DNA from: a virus | Length of the DNA stretch: 38,001 nucleotides | Virus record (IMG/VR): IMGVR_UViG_3300023049_000060 | Span: 1-38,001 of that record | Reading direction: 5' to 3' (one strand) | Part shown: positions 27,392 to 33,317 of the stretch, one piece after another | How the letters are laid out: the number at the start of each line of letters is the position of its first letter | Position numbering within the stretch: the stretch's first letter is position 1 | The notes under the pieces: model-generated | Told to the model about the DNA's origin: nothing | Database searches by the model: none | Seen by the model: the letters and a program-made list of their open reading frames with translations, nothing else | Translations under genes and position numbers: made by a program

Positions 27392-28219
27392 TTGAAAAAA
27401 CACAATTACCTAAATAATAAAGACATTCTTGCTCAGATCCATAAATCAAAGAACACATTTAGTAGTTACACCCAGCCAGAATATCACCAGTATGACATTA
27501 TTCTAAACAATCGTAATAGTATTAACAAGGACACTATACTAGAAGCTAAACAAAATAAAGCAAAAAGACTAAGTTCTCGAGAATACGAAAAAAGAAAGCT
27601 TGCCGGAGAACAAGTTAAGCAGGCAGACTGCGAGCATACCGTAAGTAGTATTACTACCGAAGAACTAATATTTAGAGTAATGTCCTTTGACCATATTCCA
27701 GATGCTCCTGGAAGGAAAAAAACTCCTAAAACAGTAGCAGACACTAAGGTTAAATTAAATTTTCCACCTTTTGTACACTACAAGTTTAACCAAGAAGGTA
27801 CCTTAGAGACAGTAGGAAAGTCGCACTGGCAGGGCAACATCCACGATGGTATTTTTAATAAGGATCACGGACGGGCAACAAACGAGTTAGCAAAAATGTG
27901 GCTAAAGCTATGTGACCGTTACGCAACTCGTGGTAACGTCCGTGGTTATACGTACAATGACGAGATGCGTGGACAGGCTATTTTGCAGCTATCGCAAATC
28001 GGACTACAGTTTGATGAAAGTAAGTCACTAAACCCGTTTGCATACTATACAGCAGCAGTAACCAATTCGTTCGTTAGAGTCATAAATATCGAAAAGCGCA
28101 ATCAAAACATGCGAGATGACATATTAGAAATGAATGACTTAACTCCAAGTTACACTAGGCAACAGCTCGGCGAATGGGAGGCAGAATTAAAGCGAAATGG
28201 ATGCGATACAGACAGCTAA
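27392..28219 (+). CDS. 55: Late-transcription sigma factor gp55
   Basis: The protein (275 aa) matches gp55, the sigma factor that directs RNA polymerase to TATAAATA late promoters. The conserved block is in the C-terminal half, about residues 160-255: NELAKMWLKLCDRYATRGNV, RGYTYNDEMRGQAILQLSQI, FDESKSLNPFAYYTAAVTNS, then FVRVINIEKRNQNMRDDILE and the terminal LTPSYTRQ. This corresponds to the sigma region 2-like core. The start is TTG at 27392, supported by AGGAGA with a 5-6 nt spacing and by the consensus promoter just upstream. T4 gp55 is 185 aa. This version has roughly 90 extra N-terminal residues (K, N and Q rich, with a helical KRLSSREYEKRKLAGEQ). The end of the gene overlaps the homing endonuclease gene by 23 nt in another frame. 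Confidence 0.92.
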   Translation: MKKHNYLNNKDILAQIHKSKNTFSSYTQPEYHQYDIILNNRNSINKDTILEAKQNKAKRLSSREYEKRKLAGEQVKQADCEHTVSSITTEELIFRVMSFDHIPDAPGRKKTPKTVADTKVKLNFPPFVHYKFNQEGTLETVGKSHWQGNIHDGIFNKDHGRATNELAKMWLKLCDRYATRGNVRGYTYNDEMRGQAILQLSQIGLQFDESKSLNPFAYYTAAVTNSFVRVINIEKRNQNMRDDILEMNDLTPSYTRQQLGEWEAELKRNGCDTDS

Positions 28220-29933
28220 CCAGTTACTAAGAAGCAAACGTCTAACGTTTAAGATGTTGTTAGAGTCTGCTATAAAGCAGGAGGCTAGCAATCTGTCTGC
28301 TAAACTCAGTACTAAAAATGCAAGACAGATTCTGCATCACGTAATAGCAGGACACGCAGAGATTCCTGTATGTCCTTGCGGCGTGTGTGTATCATGGAAT
28401 TCTGACAAAGCCTGCTATCGAAAATACTGTTCAACCGCATGCACTGCAACTTACACTGTAGAAGAAAAGAAAAGAAAGAACCTAGAAACATTAGGAGTAG
28501 AATGGCACACACAAGATGCTGTTTGGTCCGAAAAGATTAAACAAACTAGTCTGGAGAAATTCGGAGCAGAGCATTACAGCAAGACAAGCGAGTTTAAGAA
28601 CGCAGTTAAACGATCTAATTTAGAAAAGTACGGCGTCGAGCATGCGTCTCAGTGCTTAGCAGTTAAAGAAAAAGCAAAGAGTACTTGGGAAACTCATTAC
28701 GGAGTGCAAAACCCGATGCACTCACCTAGTATTCGACAAAAAATGGCAGAAACTACCTTTTGCAAGTTGGGAGTCTACAATGCATTTCACTCACTTGAAA
28801 TTCAAAACAAGATTAAACAAACTAACTTAGCAAAATACGGATTTGAGAACCCTAGACAAAACCTAGATGTTCAGGCAAGAGCATCTAAGTCTTACAAGGA
28901 AAATTTCTATCAACCAGATACCTTAGAAAAACTGTTATCACCCAAGTGGCTATTTGAAGAACACGCAAATGGCAAGACCGTGGCCGAAATAGCTGACCGC
29001 ATCGGAGTTAGCCCTAGTAATCTATCGAAGTATTTTCAGAAATACAATATCGACATTGTTCATCACAGACAAACATACGCAGAAAAGAAACTTCTACAAT
29101 TCCTTAACGAAAACAATATCAGAGTTATTCAGAATGATCGTACGGTACTATCTCCAAAAGAGCTAGACTTCTTACTTCCTGACTATAATCTAGCAATAGA
29201 AATAAACGGTGTTTATTGGCACACTGAACAATTTAACAAGCACCCATATTACCACTACAATAAAACAAAGGAGTGTGCTGAACAAGGAATTGAGCTTTGG
29301 CAATTTTGGGATTACGAAATGGAAACTCTATGGGGTCTAATCACAGATAAAATATTGTCTAAGACGCAGATCCAACAAGAAAAGATCGGAGCTAGAAAAC
29401 TGCTAGTAGGTTTAGTAGACACTCCACAAAAAAGTAAGTTTTTCAAGAAAAATCACCTACAGGCAGACTGTGGAAGTAGTATAAATCTGGGATTACTTAG
29501 TAAGTCTGGAGAATTAGTAATGTGTGCGAGTTTTAAGAAATCTAGATTTTCAAAAAGGTACAAGTGGGAGCTAATTCGCTTGGCAACCAAAAGAGGAACA
29601 ATAGTAGTAGGCGGTGCAAGTAGACTTATAAACCGTTTCGTAAAAGATTATATGATGAAAGAAGACCAGCTGGTGAGTTACTGCAATCGCAGGTTTTCAA
29701 CAGGACACGTATACCAAAAGATTGGATTCACCTGCGTTTCTACTAAAACACCCGGATATGTCTACACAAAGGGTAATAGGGTTATCGGAAGTAGACAACA
29801 ATGGCAGAAACATAAATTGTCAACCAAGCTTCAAACATTCGACAATTCGCTATCTGAGGTCGAAAACATGTCTAAGAATTCTTGCTATCGTCTCTGGGAC
29901 TGCGGTCAAGACACTTGGGTGTTAATAAAATAA
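28197..29933 (+). CDS. Free-standing homing endonuclease with Vsr-like nuclease domain
   Basis: This 578-residue protein has the layout of large phage homing endonucleases. Near residues 58-82 lies a cysteine cluster (CPCGVC...YCSTAC), a probable zinc-binding element. Residues about 108-240 contain five degenerate repeats of the form 'K..T.LEKYG.E...' (KQTSLEKFGAEHYSK, KRSNLEKYGVEHASQ and others), likely DNA-reading modules. A helix-turn-helix follows near 258-285 (TVAEIADRIGVSPSNLSKYF). The nuclease core near 290-376 (ELDFLLPDYNLAIEINGVYW, then YHYNKTKECAEQGIELWQFW) resembles the very-short-patch-repair fold. The C-terminal part (YCNRRFSTGHVYQKIGF) is a common companion domain. The gene starts within the end of gp55 and precedes gp47, so it was probably inserted between two conserved genes. 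Such enzymes cut intron-, intein- or HEG-free alleles to drive gene conversion. The target is unknown, but the split intein in gp46 nearby is a candidate. Confidence 0.85.
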   Translation: MDAIQTANQLLRSKRLTFKMLLESAIKQEASNLSAKLSTKNARQILHHVIAGHAEIPVCPCGVCVSWNSDKACYRKYCSTACTATYTVEEKKRKNLETLGVEWHTQDAVWSEKIKQTSLEKFGAEHYSKTSEFKNAVKRSNLEKYGVEHASQCLAVKEKAKSTWETHYGVQNPMHSPSIRQKMAETTFCKLGVYNAFHSLEIQNKIKQTNLAKYGFENPRQNLDVQARASKSYKENFYQPDTLEKLLSPKWLFEEHANGKTVAEIADRIGVSPSNLSKYFQKYNIDIVHHRQTYAEKKLLQFLNENNIRVIQNDRTVLSPKELDFLLPDYNLAIEINGVYWHTEQFNKHPYYHYNKTKECAEQGIELWQFWDYEMETLWGLITDKILSKTQIQQEKIGARKLLVGLVDTPQKSKFFKKNHLQADCGSSINLGLLSKSGELVMCASFKKSRFSKRYKWELIRLATKRGTIVVGGASRLINRFVKDYMMKEDQLVSYCNRRFSTGHVYQKIGFTCVSTKTPGYVYTKGNRVIGSRQQWQKHKLSTKLQTFDNSLSEVENMSKNSCYRLWDCGQDTWVLIK

Positions 29934-29942
29934 AAAAATCGT

Positions 29943-29971
29943 TTGACAACAACAACCTAGTGCTGTATAGT
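29943..29971 (+). promoter_or_regulatory. Sigma-70 promoter of gp47-gp46
   Basis: TTGACA at 29943-29948 is followed after exactly 17 nt by TATAGT at 29966-29971. Transcription would begin near 29978, and GGAG at 29982-29985 lies 5 nt before ATG 29991. The very short leader shows that the GTG at 29970 cannot be the gp47 start when this promoter is used. Confidence 0.8.
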
Positions 29972-29990
29972 GTATTTAATTGGAGAAAAT

Positions 29991-31001
29991 ATGTTTAAAA
30001 AAGCTGCTGTTTTCACAGACTTACACCTTGGGTTAAAAGGAAACGCTAAGGTACACAATCAGGATTGTGAGGAGTTCATTGACTGGTATATTGCAGAAGC
30101 TAAAGCTGCTGGCTGCGAAACCGGTATCTTTTGCGGAGATTATCATCACAATCGCAACACTTTAAACGTGTCTACAATGAACAGTTCGCTGCGAATACTA
30201 GAGAAATTAGGAGAAGCTTTTGATCAGTTCTTCTTTTTCCCCGGGAACCACGACCTGTATTACAAAGACAAACGCGACATCCACTCTGTAGAGTTTGGAC
30301 GGCACGTTCCTGGCGTAACTATTGTGAACGAAATTACAGTCAAAGACGACGTGGCACTTGTACCTTGGCTCGTTGGAGACGAGTGGAAGCAGATTGAAAA
30401 GATCAAAGCAAAATATCTGTTTGGTCACTTTGAGCTTCCTAGTTTCTATATGAACGCAATGGTACAGATGCCAGATCATGGTGACTTAAAGTCACAGCAC
30501 TTCAAGCATCAAGAGTATGTGTTTTCAGGACACTTTCACAAGCGTCAGAAAAAAGGTAAAATACATTACATAGGCAACGCTTTCCCTCATAACTATGCAG
30601 ATGCATGGGATGACGCAAGGGGTATGATGATTATCGACAAAGAAAACAGCGGGGAACCTATCTTTATAGACTGGCCGAATGCCCCGAAATATCGAACTAT
30701 TAAACTTTCTGAGCTGTTAAACGACACCGAAAGTATCATTAAGTCAAAGATGTATTTGCGTGTGACTATTGACGTTCCTATCTCATACGAAGAAGCAAGT
30801 TTCATCAAAGAAACCTTCATCTCTCAATACAGTTGCAGAGAGATTACGCTGATTCCGCAAAAGCAGGTGGAAGAGATCTCTACAGACATTGACATTGAGC
30901 ACTTTGAAAGTGTTGATCAGATTGTGTCAAATGAGATTACAGCAATCGACTCTGACAACTTTGACAAGAAATTACTGTTAGATATCTACAACGAGCTATA
31001 A
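29991..31001 (+). CDS. 47: Recombination endonuclease subunit gp47 (SbcD/Mre11-like)
   Basis: This is the phosphoesterase subunit of the gp46-gp47 complex, which resects DNA ends for T4-type recombination-dependent replication. All calcineurin-like metallophosphoesterase motifs are present: D-x-H in VFTDLHLG (about residue 10), GD in FCGDYHHN (about 50), GNHD (about 85-88), a GH in LFGHFEL, and GHFHKR (about 179-185). I place the start at ATG 29991 (336 aa; T4 gp47 is 339 aa). GGAG lies 5 nt upstream, and the upstream GTG at 29970 falls inside the promoter. The gene ends 3 nt before gp46, so the two subunits are made from one transcript. Expression probably begins before the late phase, from the sigma-70 promoter. 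Confidence 0.95.
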   Translation: MFKKAAVFTDLHLGLKGNAKVHNQDCEEFIDWYIAEAKAAGCETGIFCGDYHHNRNTLNVSTMNSSLRILEKLGEAFDQFFFFPGNHDLYYKDKRDIHSVEFGRHVPGVTIVNEITVKDDVALVPWLVGDEWKQIEKIKAKYLFGHFELPSFYMNAMVQMPDHGDLKSQHFKHQEYVFSGHFHKRQKKGKIHYIGNAFPHNYADAWDDARGMMIIDKENSGEPIFIDWPNAPKYRTIKLSELLNDTESIIKSKMYLRVTIDVPISYEEASFIKETFISQYSCREITLIPQKQVEEISTDIDIEHFESVDQIVSNEITAIDSDNFDKKLLLDIYNEL

Positions 31002-31004
31002 CAA

Positions 31005-31274
31005 ATGATAAAAGTAAAAGACTTAACAGTCCGTAACTTCATGTCTGTGGGTAACGTATCACAGGCTGTGAACTTTAACAAAGAAAAACTTACACTGGTA
31101 CTTGGTGAGAACCTAGACCAAGGTGGTGACGACACTGGATCGCGAAATGGAACAGGGAAATGTGTTTGTACAAATACTGTAATAAATGTAAGAAACACTA
31201 AAACAGGTGAAATTTACGAAACAACAGTAGGAGATCTTTACAATGCCGCGATGGAAGTACAGTCTAAAGGATAA
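31005..31274 (+). CDS. 46: gp46 N-terminal part fused to an N-intein fragment
   Basis: Residues 1-52 are the N-terminus of the recombination ATPase gp46 (SbcC/Rad50-like): IKVKDLTVRNFMSVGN, LVLGENLDQGG, then GSRNGTGK, which is the Walker A loop without its last Thr/Ser. At residue 53 the frame changes character to CVCTNTVINV...GEIYETTVGDLYNAAM and stops after 37 residues (TAA 31272-31274). A Cys directly after a conserved active-site motif, a T three residues later and a terminal 'GDLYN' helix are what intein splicing block A looks like. Short N-fragments ending at such a DLY helix are known from atypically split inteins (for example AceL-TerL). Alone this protein cannot bind ATP. Trans-splicing with the product of the next frame would restore SRNGTGK-TSIINAL. 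Confidence 0.88.
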   Translation: MIKVKDLTVRNFMSVGNVSQAVNFNKEKLTLVLGENLDQGGDDTGSRNGTGKCVCTNTVINVRNTKTGEIYETTVGDLYNAAMEVQSKG

Positions 31275-31700
31275 CTTTATACAAGTGTTAGACGACTACA
31301 AACAAAACAAAGAGGAAACACTAAAAAAATGTCTACAATTTCTCAAACAGTAGATAGGAAATTCATCAACAGCGTTGACCTTTCTGATCTTGAAATCGAA
31401 ACAGATTCTGGATGGCAACCTGTTTCTGCTATTCATAAGACTATTCCTTACAAGGTATGGGAGCTCGAAACAGAAACTGGTCGGATACTACATTGTGCCG
31501 ACACTCATATCTTGTTCGACGAAAACTTTAACGAGATGTTTGTCGAAGATGTTGACGTAGACGTTACAAAAATAATCACTAAGTCTGGTCCTGAGACAGT
31601 GTCTTACCTAAGAATGGCTGAGCATAAAGAAAATATGTTCGACCTAACTGTTGAGCATCCTGATCATAGATTTTATACAAATGGTATACTTTCTCATAAT
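31161..31700 (+). other. Split intein interrupting gp46 (both fragments with the gap)
   Basis: The N-fragment is 31161-31271 (37 residues, first residue Cys). The C-fragment is 31329-31700 (124 residues, ending SHN, followed by Thr 31701). The C-fragment shows the other splicing blocks: GRILHCADTHILF is a block B with its T..H, and FDLTVEHPDHRFYTNGILSH plus the final Asn is blocks F and G. Together they make about 161 residues, the size of a mini-intein without an endonuclease domain. The break lies between blocks A and B, not at the more common site after the endonuclease position. The two fragments are in the same reading frame but are separated by a TAA and 54 nt. Confidence 0.85.
31243..31353 (+). 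other. 36-codon frame bridging the two intein halves
   Basis: A frame shifted by +1 relative to both gp46 pieces runs from ATG 31243 to TAG 31351-31353. It overlaps the end of the N-fragment by 32 nt and the start of the C-fragment by 25 nt. It would encode a polar, helix-prone, lysine-rich peptide (MPRWKYSLKDNFIQVLDDYK, then QNKEETLKKCLQFLKQ). It may be the remnant of the linker of an ancestral unsplit intein, whose frame was lost by a base change near 31269-31274 and near the A7 run at 31323-31329. No convincing ribosome site precedes ATG 31243, so an independent small gene is less likely. Confidence 0.4.
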
Positions 31701-33317
31701 ACCTCTATCATCAACGCTCTCAGTTACGCATTGTACGGCACAGCCCTTACAAACATCAAAAAGAATAACTTGATCAACAAGACTAACAGCAAAGGCATGT
31801 TGGTTACACTGCATTTTGAAAAAGACGGTACTAATTATCGTATAGAGCGTGGTCGCAGTCCTAATATACTCAAATTTTATATTGATGAGCAAGAACAGGA
31901 AATGACAGACGAGTCTCAGGGCGATAGTCGTAAGACTCAAGAAGTAATCAATGAGCTGTTGGGCATGACACACGACATGTTTAAACACATTGTCGCTCTT
32001 AACACCTATACCGAACCGTTTCTTAGTATGAGGACCAACGACCAGCGAGCAATCATTGAACAATTGCTGGGTATTACTATTCTTTCTGAAAAGGCTGATG
32101 TGCTAAAAGAAAAGGTTCGTGCTGTTAAGGCGGAAATCACAGAAGAAACACTAAAGATCGATGCAATCCAGACTGCAAACAGCAAAATCGAGCACACGAT
32201 TAAGAGCCTTGGCACAAAAAGAAGTGCCTGGAACTCTAAAAAAGATAAAGATATCAACAACTTAGTAAAGGCAATCGACGAGCTCGAACATCTTAACATC
32301 GACGAAGAACTTGCTGCACACGACACTCTGTCCAATTGGACCGAACTAGACAACAAGCTCAGTGCACTTCAGAAGGAGCAAAGCACCTTAGAAAGCGCTC
32401 TAAGCCGTGCAGAGAAGACCGTAAACAAGGTCGCCGGGGACATTGCAGACCTTGCTGACGCGGCCTGCTACGCTTGCGGACAAGAATTACACGCAGATAA
32501 GAAAAAAGAAATTCTTGACAAGAAAAAGAAAGAACAGCAAGATGCTGTTGCTTATCAAACTGAGGTTGCAGACAAGTTAACCAAAGTACAAGCAGATATG
32601 TCAGAAATAGGCGAGTTAGATCACAAGCCTAGGACATTCTACGAGACTATGAAAGAAGCATACGAGCACAGAACCAACGTTGCTAGCTTAGTACAGGCGC
32701 TCGAGAGTAAAACAGCAGAAGAAGACCCTTACCAAAGCCAAATTGACGAATTACAATCAGAGGCTATCCAAGAAGTCACTTGGGGCAAGGTGAATGACTT
32801 AACAAATCACAAAGAACATCAAGAATTCTTGCTAAAACTGCTTACAAACAAAGATTCTTTTATTCGCAAGAAGATTATTGATCAGAACTTAGCTTATTTG
32901 AACCACAGGCTTTCATATTACTTGGATAGACTGGGATTACCGCATCAAGTAACGTTCCAAAACGACTTGAACGTTGAAATTACCCAACTTGGTCAGGATT
33001 TAGACTTTGACAACTTGTCACGAGGCGAAAGAAACAGGCTTATACTAGGTCTGAGCTTTGCTTTCCGTGATGTTTGGGAAAGTTTGTATCAAAATGTGAA
33101 CTTGCTATTCATAGATGAGTTAATTGACAGTGGTCTTGACTCAGCAGGTGTAGAAAACGCACTATCTGTGCTTAAAAAGATTGGTCGAGAGCGTGAAAAG
33201 AATATTTTCTTGATATCACACAAGGATGAATTGATTGGAAGAGTAAATCACATTCTCAAAGTAGTTAAAGACGGCGGGTTTACAGCATACGCCAATGATG
33301 TGGATGTAATAGAATAA
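31329..33317 (+). CDS. 46: C-intein fragment fused to the main body of gp46 (SbcC/Rad50-like)
   Basis: This frame has 662 residues. The first 124 are the C-terminal intein fragment, ending GILSHN. The remaining 538 begin TSIINALSYALYGTAL, the helix that completes the Walker A loop of gp46. Further on are a long coiled coil, an apical zinc-hook CxxC (ACYACGQ, about residue 380), the ABC signature DNLSRGERNRLI (about 562) and Walker B LLFIDELIDSGLDSAG (about 591). After splicing, the mature protein would be 590 aa, close to T4 gp46 (560 aa). AGAGGA lies 12 nt before ATG 31329, a somewhat long but usable spacing. The TAA shares bases with the ATG of the next gene (TAATG). With gp47 it forms the end-resecting recombination complex. 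Confidence 0.92.
   Translation: MSTISQTVDRKFINSVDLSDLEIETDSGWQPVSAIHKTIPYKVWELETETGRILHCADTHILFDENFNEMFVEDVDVDVTKIITKSGPETVSYLRMAEHKENMFDLTVEHPDHRFYTNGILSHNTSIINALSYALYGTALTNIKKNNLINKTNSKGMLVTLHFEKDGTNYRIERGRSPNILKFYIDEQEQEMTDESQGDSRKTQEVINELLGMTHDMFKHIVALNTYTEPFLSMRTNDQRAIIEQLLGITILSEKADVLKEKVRAVKAEITEETLKIDAIQTANSKIEHTIKSLGTKRSAWNSKKDKDINNLVKAIDELEHLNIDEELAAHDTLSNWTELDNKLSALQKEQSTLESALSRAEKTVNKVAGDIADLADAACYACGQELHADKKKEILDKKKKEQQDAVAYQTEVADKLTKVQADMSEIGELDHKPRTFYETMKEAYEHRTNVASLVQALESKTAEEDPYQSQIDELQSEAIQEVTWGKVNDLTNHKEHQEFLLKLLTNKDSFIRKKIIDQNLAYLNHRLSYYLDRLGLPHQVTFQNDLNVEITQLGQDLDFDNLSRGERNRLILGLSFAFRDVWESLYQNVNLLFIDELIDSGLDSAGVENALSVLKKIGREREKNIFLISHKDELIGRVNHILKVVKDGGFTAYANDVDVIE

Follow-up and report, generated by a model that had tools for sequence, protein, structure and literature searches.

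Analysis of a 38,001-nucleotide (nt) stretch of viral DNA (IMG/VR record IMGVR_UViG_3300023049_000060; the whole stretch is designated here as the window, and all coordinates are positions within it) revealed that its gene for the recombination ATPase gp46 is very probably interrupted, within the Walker A motif, by an atypically split class 1 intein that would act by trans-splicing and that would descend from a mobile three-gene cassette whose endonuclease has since been deleted. An original prediction, made from this DNA alone, that the P-loop of gp46 is split by such an intein was supported, two open reading frames (ORFs) indeed meeting inside the Walker A motif, between its lysine and its threonine. 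The anatomy of the locus, the family to which it belongs, the conserved residues, the relic of an endonuclease gene and the deletion within that gene can all be read directly from the DNA.

Anatomy of the split gp46 gene and its intein

The two frames were found as had been described. The first ORF (31005-31274; 89 amino acids, aa) follows gp46 up to ...GSRNGTGK, continues as CVCTNTVINVRNTKTGEIYETTVGDLYNAAMEVQSKG and ends at a TAA codon, while the second (31329-33317; 662 aa) supplies 124 residues finishing in HRFYTNGILSHN, followed by the rest of gp46 from TSIINALSYALYG, both ORFs being located on the plus strand. The gp46 part of the first ORF, i.e. the N-extein (31005-31160), comprises the first 52 residues of the protein, the last of which is the Walker A lysine, and was assigned from its sequence and a phrog_77 match. 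The C-extein (31701-33317) comprises the other 538 residues, starting from the +1 Thr of the Walker A motif (phrog_77, expectation value (E) 1.9e-89), and includes a CYAC zinc hook, an LSRGE signature and a Walker B motif (LLFIDE). Joining the flanks gives ...GSRNGTGK-TSIINALSYALYG, the anticipated intact Walker A motif, and positions 31005-31160 joined to 31701-33314 translate into 590 residues (52+538). Immediately upstream, on the same strand, lies the gene of the gp46 partner gp47, the SbcD-like nuclease subunit (29970-31001; phrog_100, E 3.5e-72), which also adjoins gp46 in relatives. The family match, zinc hook, ATP-binding cassette (ABC) signature, Walker B motif and gp47 neighbour together identify a gp46/SbcC/Rad50-like ATPase.

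Among the 80 gp46 genes of IMG/VR nearest to that of the window, 79 represent empty alleles, in which the N-extein sequence runs straight into TT/TSIINALS and the site reads as an uninterrupted GSRNGTGKT[TS]IINALSYA. The extra residues of the window have no counterpart in these alleles, and both flanks are intact in the insert-free host gene. The one remaining gene, at locus L078 (L-numbers designate the loci found in this study), carries the same split intein.

The N-terminal intein piece (IntN; 31161-31271, with its TAA stop at 31272-31274) consists of 37 aa and was shown by alignment and structure prediction to contain Cys1 and block A. The C-terminal piece (IntC; 31329-31700) consists of 124 aa and contains block B (CADTHIL), block F (MFDLTVEHPDHRFYTN) and block G (GILSHN), a distribution of motifs over the two pieces that agrees with the predicted one. 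With two ORFs, an IntN of less than about 40 aa and blocks B, F and G all residing in IntC, the intein is atypically, i.e. N-proximally, split. Alignment of representatives revealed that C1, T6, T15, T22, G24, L26 and N28 are invariant in IntN, as are H60, D105, H123 and N124 in IntC, the +1 residue being Thr; the window intein possesses the residues of a class 1 intein, namely Cys1, the block B His, the block F Asp, the block G His-Asn and the +1 Thr.

IntC scored above the model cut-off of the intein_Cterm profile TIGR01443, and a profile of the family matched the split inteins VidaL (4e-8), gp41-1 (7e-8) and Cat (3e-5) in the PDB. Since IntN and IntC share one frame and are separated by a single TAA, a 180-residue readthrough intein could be folded using AlphaFold, with the TAA at 31272 read as a residue. 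The resulting model exhibits a Hint fold, with a predicted local distance difference test (pLDDT) value of 88 and a predicted template modelling (pTM) score of 0.80; pLDDT was 92-98 wherever the model is structured, dropping to about 40-50 in the linker. The best Foldseek match was VidaL (E 2.5e-9), and 58 matches were obtained at E ≤0.001, those listed being inteins or intein-like domains. IntN was recognised through its relatives and through this joint fold. The predicted split intein of 37+124 residues is supported by its motifs, profile matches, Hint fold and empty alleles, and by homologues that are likewise split.

The gp46 intein family and loss of the endonuclease in the window

A scan of IMG/VR contigs with the window IntC identified 38 distinct IntC sequences that interrupt gp46-type genes, for 36 of which the IntN was recovered. 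Because the same split recurs at the same site in 38 distinct sequences, it is not a product of chance. A middle open frame of 353-377 codons was observed between the halves in 29 of the 36 loci, was broken in one (L141) and was gone from six (the window, L111, L114, L145, L147 and L180). Where present, this endonuclease gene overlaps both intein halves in another frame and the halves, whose own frame is closed, lie about 1 kb apart; in the group nearest to the window, the middle ORF begins within the IntN coding sequence and finishes within that of IntC, the overlaps typically measuring 32 and 25 nt. A minimal form of the gp46-type split intein was observed in L147 (3768-3863), with an 8-nt overlap between the stop of IntN and the start of IntC and no remaining endonuclease. 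In a scan of genome contigs, only two matches were obtained in metagenome-assembled genomes. Candidate inteins in gp46 of 121Q-like phages (alignments from query residue 105) were rejected, as the match begins within about 50 codons of the start of the coding sequence, too close for an intein to fit in.

Homologues of the middle ORF include annotated VSR endonucleases from phages of Aeromonas and Tenacibaculum. Its Pfam matches fell below the cut-off, and 1VSR was the third Foldseek match of its predicted structure, with a probability of 1.00 but an E of 0.05, so the ORF is likely but not proven to encode a Vsr-like (EDxHD) homing endonuclease (HEN). In seven gp46-type loci (L140, L159, L169, L172, L178, L210 and L211), the C-terminal domain apparently is GIY-YIG-like rather than Vsr-like; this was read directly in L140 and L159, a scan of which gave a weak T5orf172 match, the other five being grouped by spacing and frame.

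The window retains a relic of this gene (31243-31353, plus strand), which consists of 36 codons and a TAG stop, MPRWKYSLKDNFIQVL+DDYKQNKEETLKKCLQFLKQ, with a deletion junction near 31294. Its frame reads MPRWKYSLKDNFIQVLDDYKQNKEETLKKCLQFLKQ and then stops, with the first ~17 and last ~19 endonuclease codons joined. When the relic was compared with the two ends of the L096 HEN, the best two-ended score was 143, and none of 5000 shuffles scored above 42, while 17 of the last 20 residues of its tail are identical to those of L083. DNA alignment to L082, relative to which the relic is shorter, placed a 993-bp internal deletion in the window, and the relic shares 32 nt with IntN and 25 nt with IntC, as does the endonuclease gene of intact relatives. 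The endonuclease is intact in 29 of the 36 relatives, whereas only the 36 relic codons are left here; the window locus is derived from the fractured-gene arrangement, in which an endonuclease gene lies between the halves, and is not a current member of it.

The locus contains two Shine-Dalgarno-like sites. AGGAG (31229-31233, plus strand) lies within IntN codons V-G-D, 9 nt before the endonuclease ATG at 31243, and AGGAG or GGAG occurs at this position in 12 of the 15 representatives. GAGG (31312-31315, plus strand) lies in the relic tail codons N-K-E-E (AACAAAGAGGAA), 13 nt before the IntC ATG at 31329; it recurs at the same spacing in seven other representatives, with variant sites in others. 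These sites would be used for translation of the endonuclease ORF and of IntC, respectively, GAGG being the likely ribosome-binding site of IntC. The part of the gene that survives corresponds roughly to what is required by the two gp46 halves, namely the coding end of IntN and a tail with GAGG.

It is conceivable that selection has kept the relic itself, for example to couple its translation to that of IntC, as opposed to a remnant in which nothing but the IntC start signal counts, as it has an open frame, its own start and Shine-Dalgarno-like site and a stop codon 22 nt beyond the IntC start, and as L111 retains a similar in-frame relic of 25 codons. This explanation is nevertheless doubtful, since the L145 relic is out of frame, L147 has shed its relic almost entirely and the register is kept in only three of the six HEN-less loci (the intein halves being out of frame in L145, L147 and L180), which is compatible with chance. 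For the same reason, the in-frame state of the window relic is not evidence of function, and selection to keep it in frame is unsupported.

IntC was shown to be under purifying selection, with about 0.25 non-synonymous substitutions per site (dN) against at least 1.2 synonymous ones (dS). In the extein tree, the window gp46 is nested among empty alleles (support 100/98) and the intein label changes six times. Loci L145 and L152 share a near-identical intein in diverged gp46 genes (dS of 0.12 for IntC versus 1.28 for the extein), which indicates a recent transfer, and past homing of the gp46 intein is probable. About 0.9 kb of the endonuclease has been deleted from L145, out of frame, with IntN, tail and IntC intact. 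As a separate observation, the proportion of synonymous differences (pS) in IntN (0.38-0.46) is about half that of the exteins (0.79 and 0.83) and also lower than that of IntC (0.68), and this also holds outside the endonuclease overlap.

Proposed mechanism and alternative explanations

In the proposed mechanism, gp46N-IntN and IntC-gp46C would be translated as separate chains, after which the two intein pieces would associate, Cys1 and Thr+1 would drive trans-splicing and cyclisation of Asn124 would free a 590-residue gp46 with an intact P-loop, able to pair with gp47. The ancestor would have been a mobile cassette of three overlapping genes, encoding IntN, a shifted-frame homing endonuclease and IntC, with the IntN codons bearing the ribosome-binding site of the endonuclease and the last endonuclease codons bearing that of IntC. 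The window phage or an ancestor would then have lost about 330 endonuclease codons by internal deletion. As the endonuclease is deleted except for its two ends, which overlap IntN and supply the start signal of IntC, the intein is presumably immobile and would still have to splice for gp46 function. The endonuclease relic and the family, neither of which figured in the original prediction, offer an explanation for the position of the split.

Several points weigh against this mechanism. The intein profile search that had been proposed as a check succeeded in part: IntC passed TIGR01443, as mentioned above, whereas Pfam Intein_splicing reached 2e-5 but remained below its gathering score, and IntN alone gave no meaningful match in Pfam and NCBIfam. 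Among the representatives inspected, no Shine-Dalgarno-like site for IntC was found in L104 and L109, and the spacing of 13 nt between GAGG and IntC is long. Trans-splicing itself is a step that we infer from anatomy, conservation and relatives.

Readthrough of the TAA at 31272 at some rate, followed by splicing in cis, is an alternative suggested by the shared frame of the halves and the single TAA between them, as a continuous 180-residue intein with this codon as a residue is predicted to fold well, L111 is in the same single-stop state and the related intein L167 in the large terminase gene (TerL) is contiguous. This scenario is very unlikely, however. TAA stops translation strongly and the start of IntC is its own and is conserved, while the halves are out of frame in the HEN-less L145, L147 and L180. 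Moreover, because the intein frame is closed in HEN-bearing relatives, with halves about 1 kb apart, expression in two pieces looks ancestral and readthrough does not.

Functional phage enzymes in two unspliced chains, split by endonuclease insertion, are known for NrdA of Aeh1 and the DNA polymerase of phage 25 (PMC2988022), and gp46 could in principle function likewise. The break in gp46 lies inside the Walker A motif, which is expected to require a contiguous chain for ATP binding, so ATP binding by an unspliced two-chain gp46 is unlikely; invariance was, furthermore, observed at residues that only splicing requires, rendering this option hardly credible. Least probable of all is a contiguous intein disrupted by sequencing or assembly error, or a dead pseudogene: although the record is a single 38-kb contig fragment and relative L098 looks frame-damaged, dozens of contigs share the stop, overlaps and start, which led to the rejection of sequencing error, the catalytic residues are intact, IntC is under purifying selection and gp46 retains its zinc hook, signature and Walker B motif. 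Trans-splicing of a split intein is retained as the preferred explanation; fast splicing and regulation of recombination by the split are conjectures.

Comparison with known split inteins and TerL relatives

We know of no split intein previously attributed to gp46. No description of one was found in the open-access text searched, the host-gene list of Dassa et al. 2009 not having been compared, and gp46 appears to be a new host for a split intein. Endonuclease genes lodged between the two halves of a split intein are, by contrast, already known from PolB and TerL, for example in MIJ3 PolB (PMC6892783). Atypically split TerL inteins have an IntN of 37 aa (GOS-TerL) or 25 aa (AceL-TerL) (PMC11766414), and that of an atypically split PolB intein measures 15 aa (PMC10189870). 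GOS-TerL, AceL-TerL and Cat-TerL resemble the gp46 intein in their short IntN and long IntC, Cat being also a profile match, but their host is TerL rather than gp46, and the nucleophiles of the gp46 intein are Cys1/Thr+1 as opposed to Ser1/Cys+1 in GOS TerL (PMC10189870). VidaL (PDB 6VGV), the closest match in both structure and sequence, is about 22% identical when structurally aligned.

In PolB of Aeromonas phage Aes123 (JN377899), ORFs for IntN, a VSR endonuclease (a distant homologue of the gp46 one) and IntC follow each other in this order, with overlaps of 16 and 17 nt; unlike in the window, its host is a DNA polymerase and the endonuclease is still present. In TerL of Campylobacter phage F379, the N-part, endonuclease and IntC-TerL are overlapping ORFs, as in the gp46 relatives, but the endonuclease is GIY-YIG-like (weak T5orf172 match) and the N-terminal piece reads differently. 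The same general arrangement, fractured genes in which an endonuclease gene separates the halves of a split intein, was reportedly described by Dassa et al. in 2009 (a study cited in PMC11766414 and PMC6892783); the window differs from these in that its endonuclease is deleted. Salicola phage SCTP-2 gp46 (L129, 1879-4644) is interrupted at the same Walker A site (NGIGK / TTIINGIS) by an insert resembling an intein, which differs in being a contiguous, long in-frame insertion with Ala at position 1; it is annotated only as a hypothetical protein.

The gp46 recombination ATPase is an apparent addition to the genes interrupted by natural split inteins. At the Walker A site, ATP binding should not occur before splicing, and the intein would tie double-strand-break processing, which is thought to be used by homing itself, to trans-splicing. 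The 36 loci constitute a natural series, running from elements with the endonuclease to elements without it and containing one recent pair, in which the origin and persistence of split inteins become testable. The way in which genes and start signals overlap reciprocally provides a concrete reason for a split near the N-terminus, and the endonuclease leftover between the halves illustrates the invasion of genes by such elements and their subsequent loss of mobility. Several diverse members whose IntN is short (about 31-43 aa) are also candidates for protein labelling.

In seven distinct TerL inteins (L251, L254, L255, L256, L260, L261 and L262), the intein frame is stop-free across ~270 codons and the shifted frame encodes a Vsr-type endonuclease; L166 (2813-5662, HEN to 4022) exemplifies such overprinting at the TerL locus. 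Synonymous recoding of the endonuclease (2000 trials per sequence) introduced a mean of 16-21 stops in the intein frame and never fewer than four, compared with none observed, and the third frame contains 18-24 stops. Purifying selection acts on the endonuclease frame, while the intein frame, though open, shows poor conservation (55% vs 25% amino-acid identity at distance), which suggests that the TerL relatives are contiguous inteins with an overprinted endonuclease. In the TerL intein of L167 (3794-4369), the overprinted endonuclease has been deleted, leaving a 37-codon shifted-frame relic (MKELHSHLFRKHNMTVTKYKEVYPKQVLQECLNFLNQ) within a contiguous mini-intein that parallels the window relic. 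It is possible, though tentative, that the split site was set by a shifted-frame endonuclease lying over a contiguous intein, with TerL as the living state, the gp46 elements as closed-frame descendants that are obligatorily in two pieces, and the window as the end stage, in which the endonuclease has been erased and the split locked by shared start and stop signals.

Finally, a free-standing homing endonuclease gene of 578 aa is located between gp55 and gp47 in the window (28197-29933; phrog_3339, E 1.2e-106; weak Vsr match), raising the question of whether it could mobilise the gp46 region in trans. A free-standing gp55/gp47 endonuclease is also present in L041 (without an intein), L104/L201 and L145, and in most other relatives having both genes the gp55-gp47 gap is about 60-130 bp.
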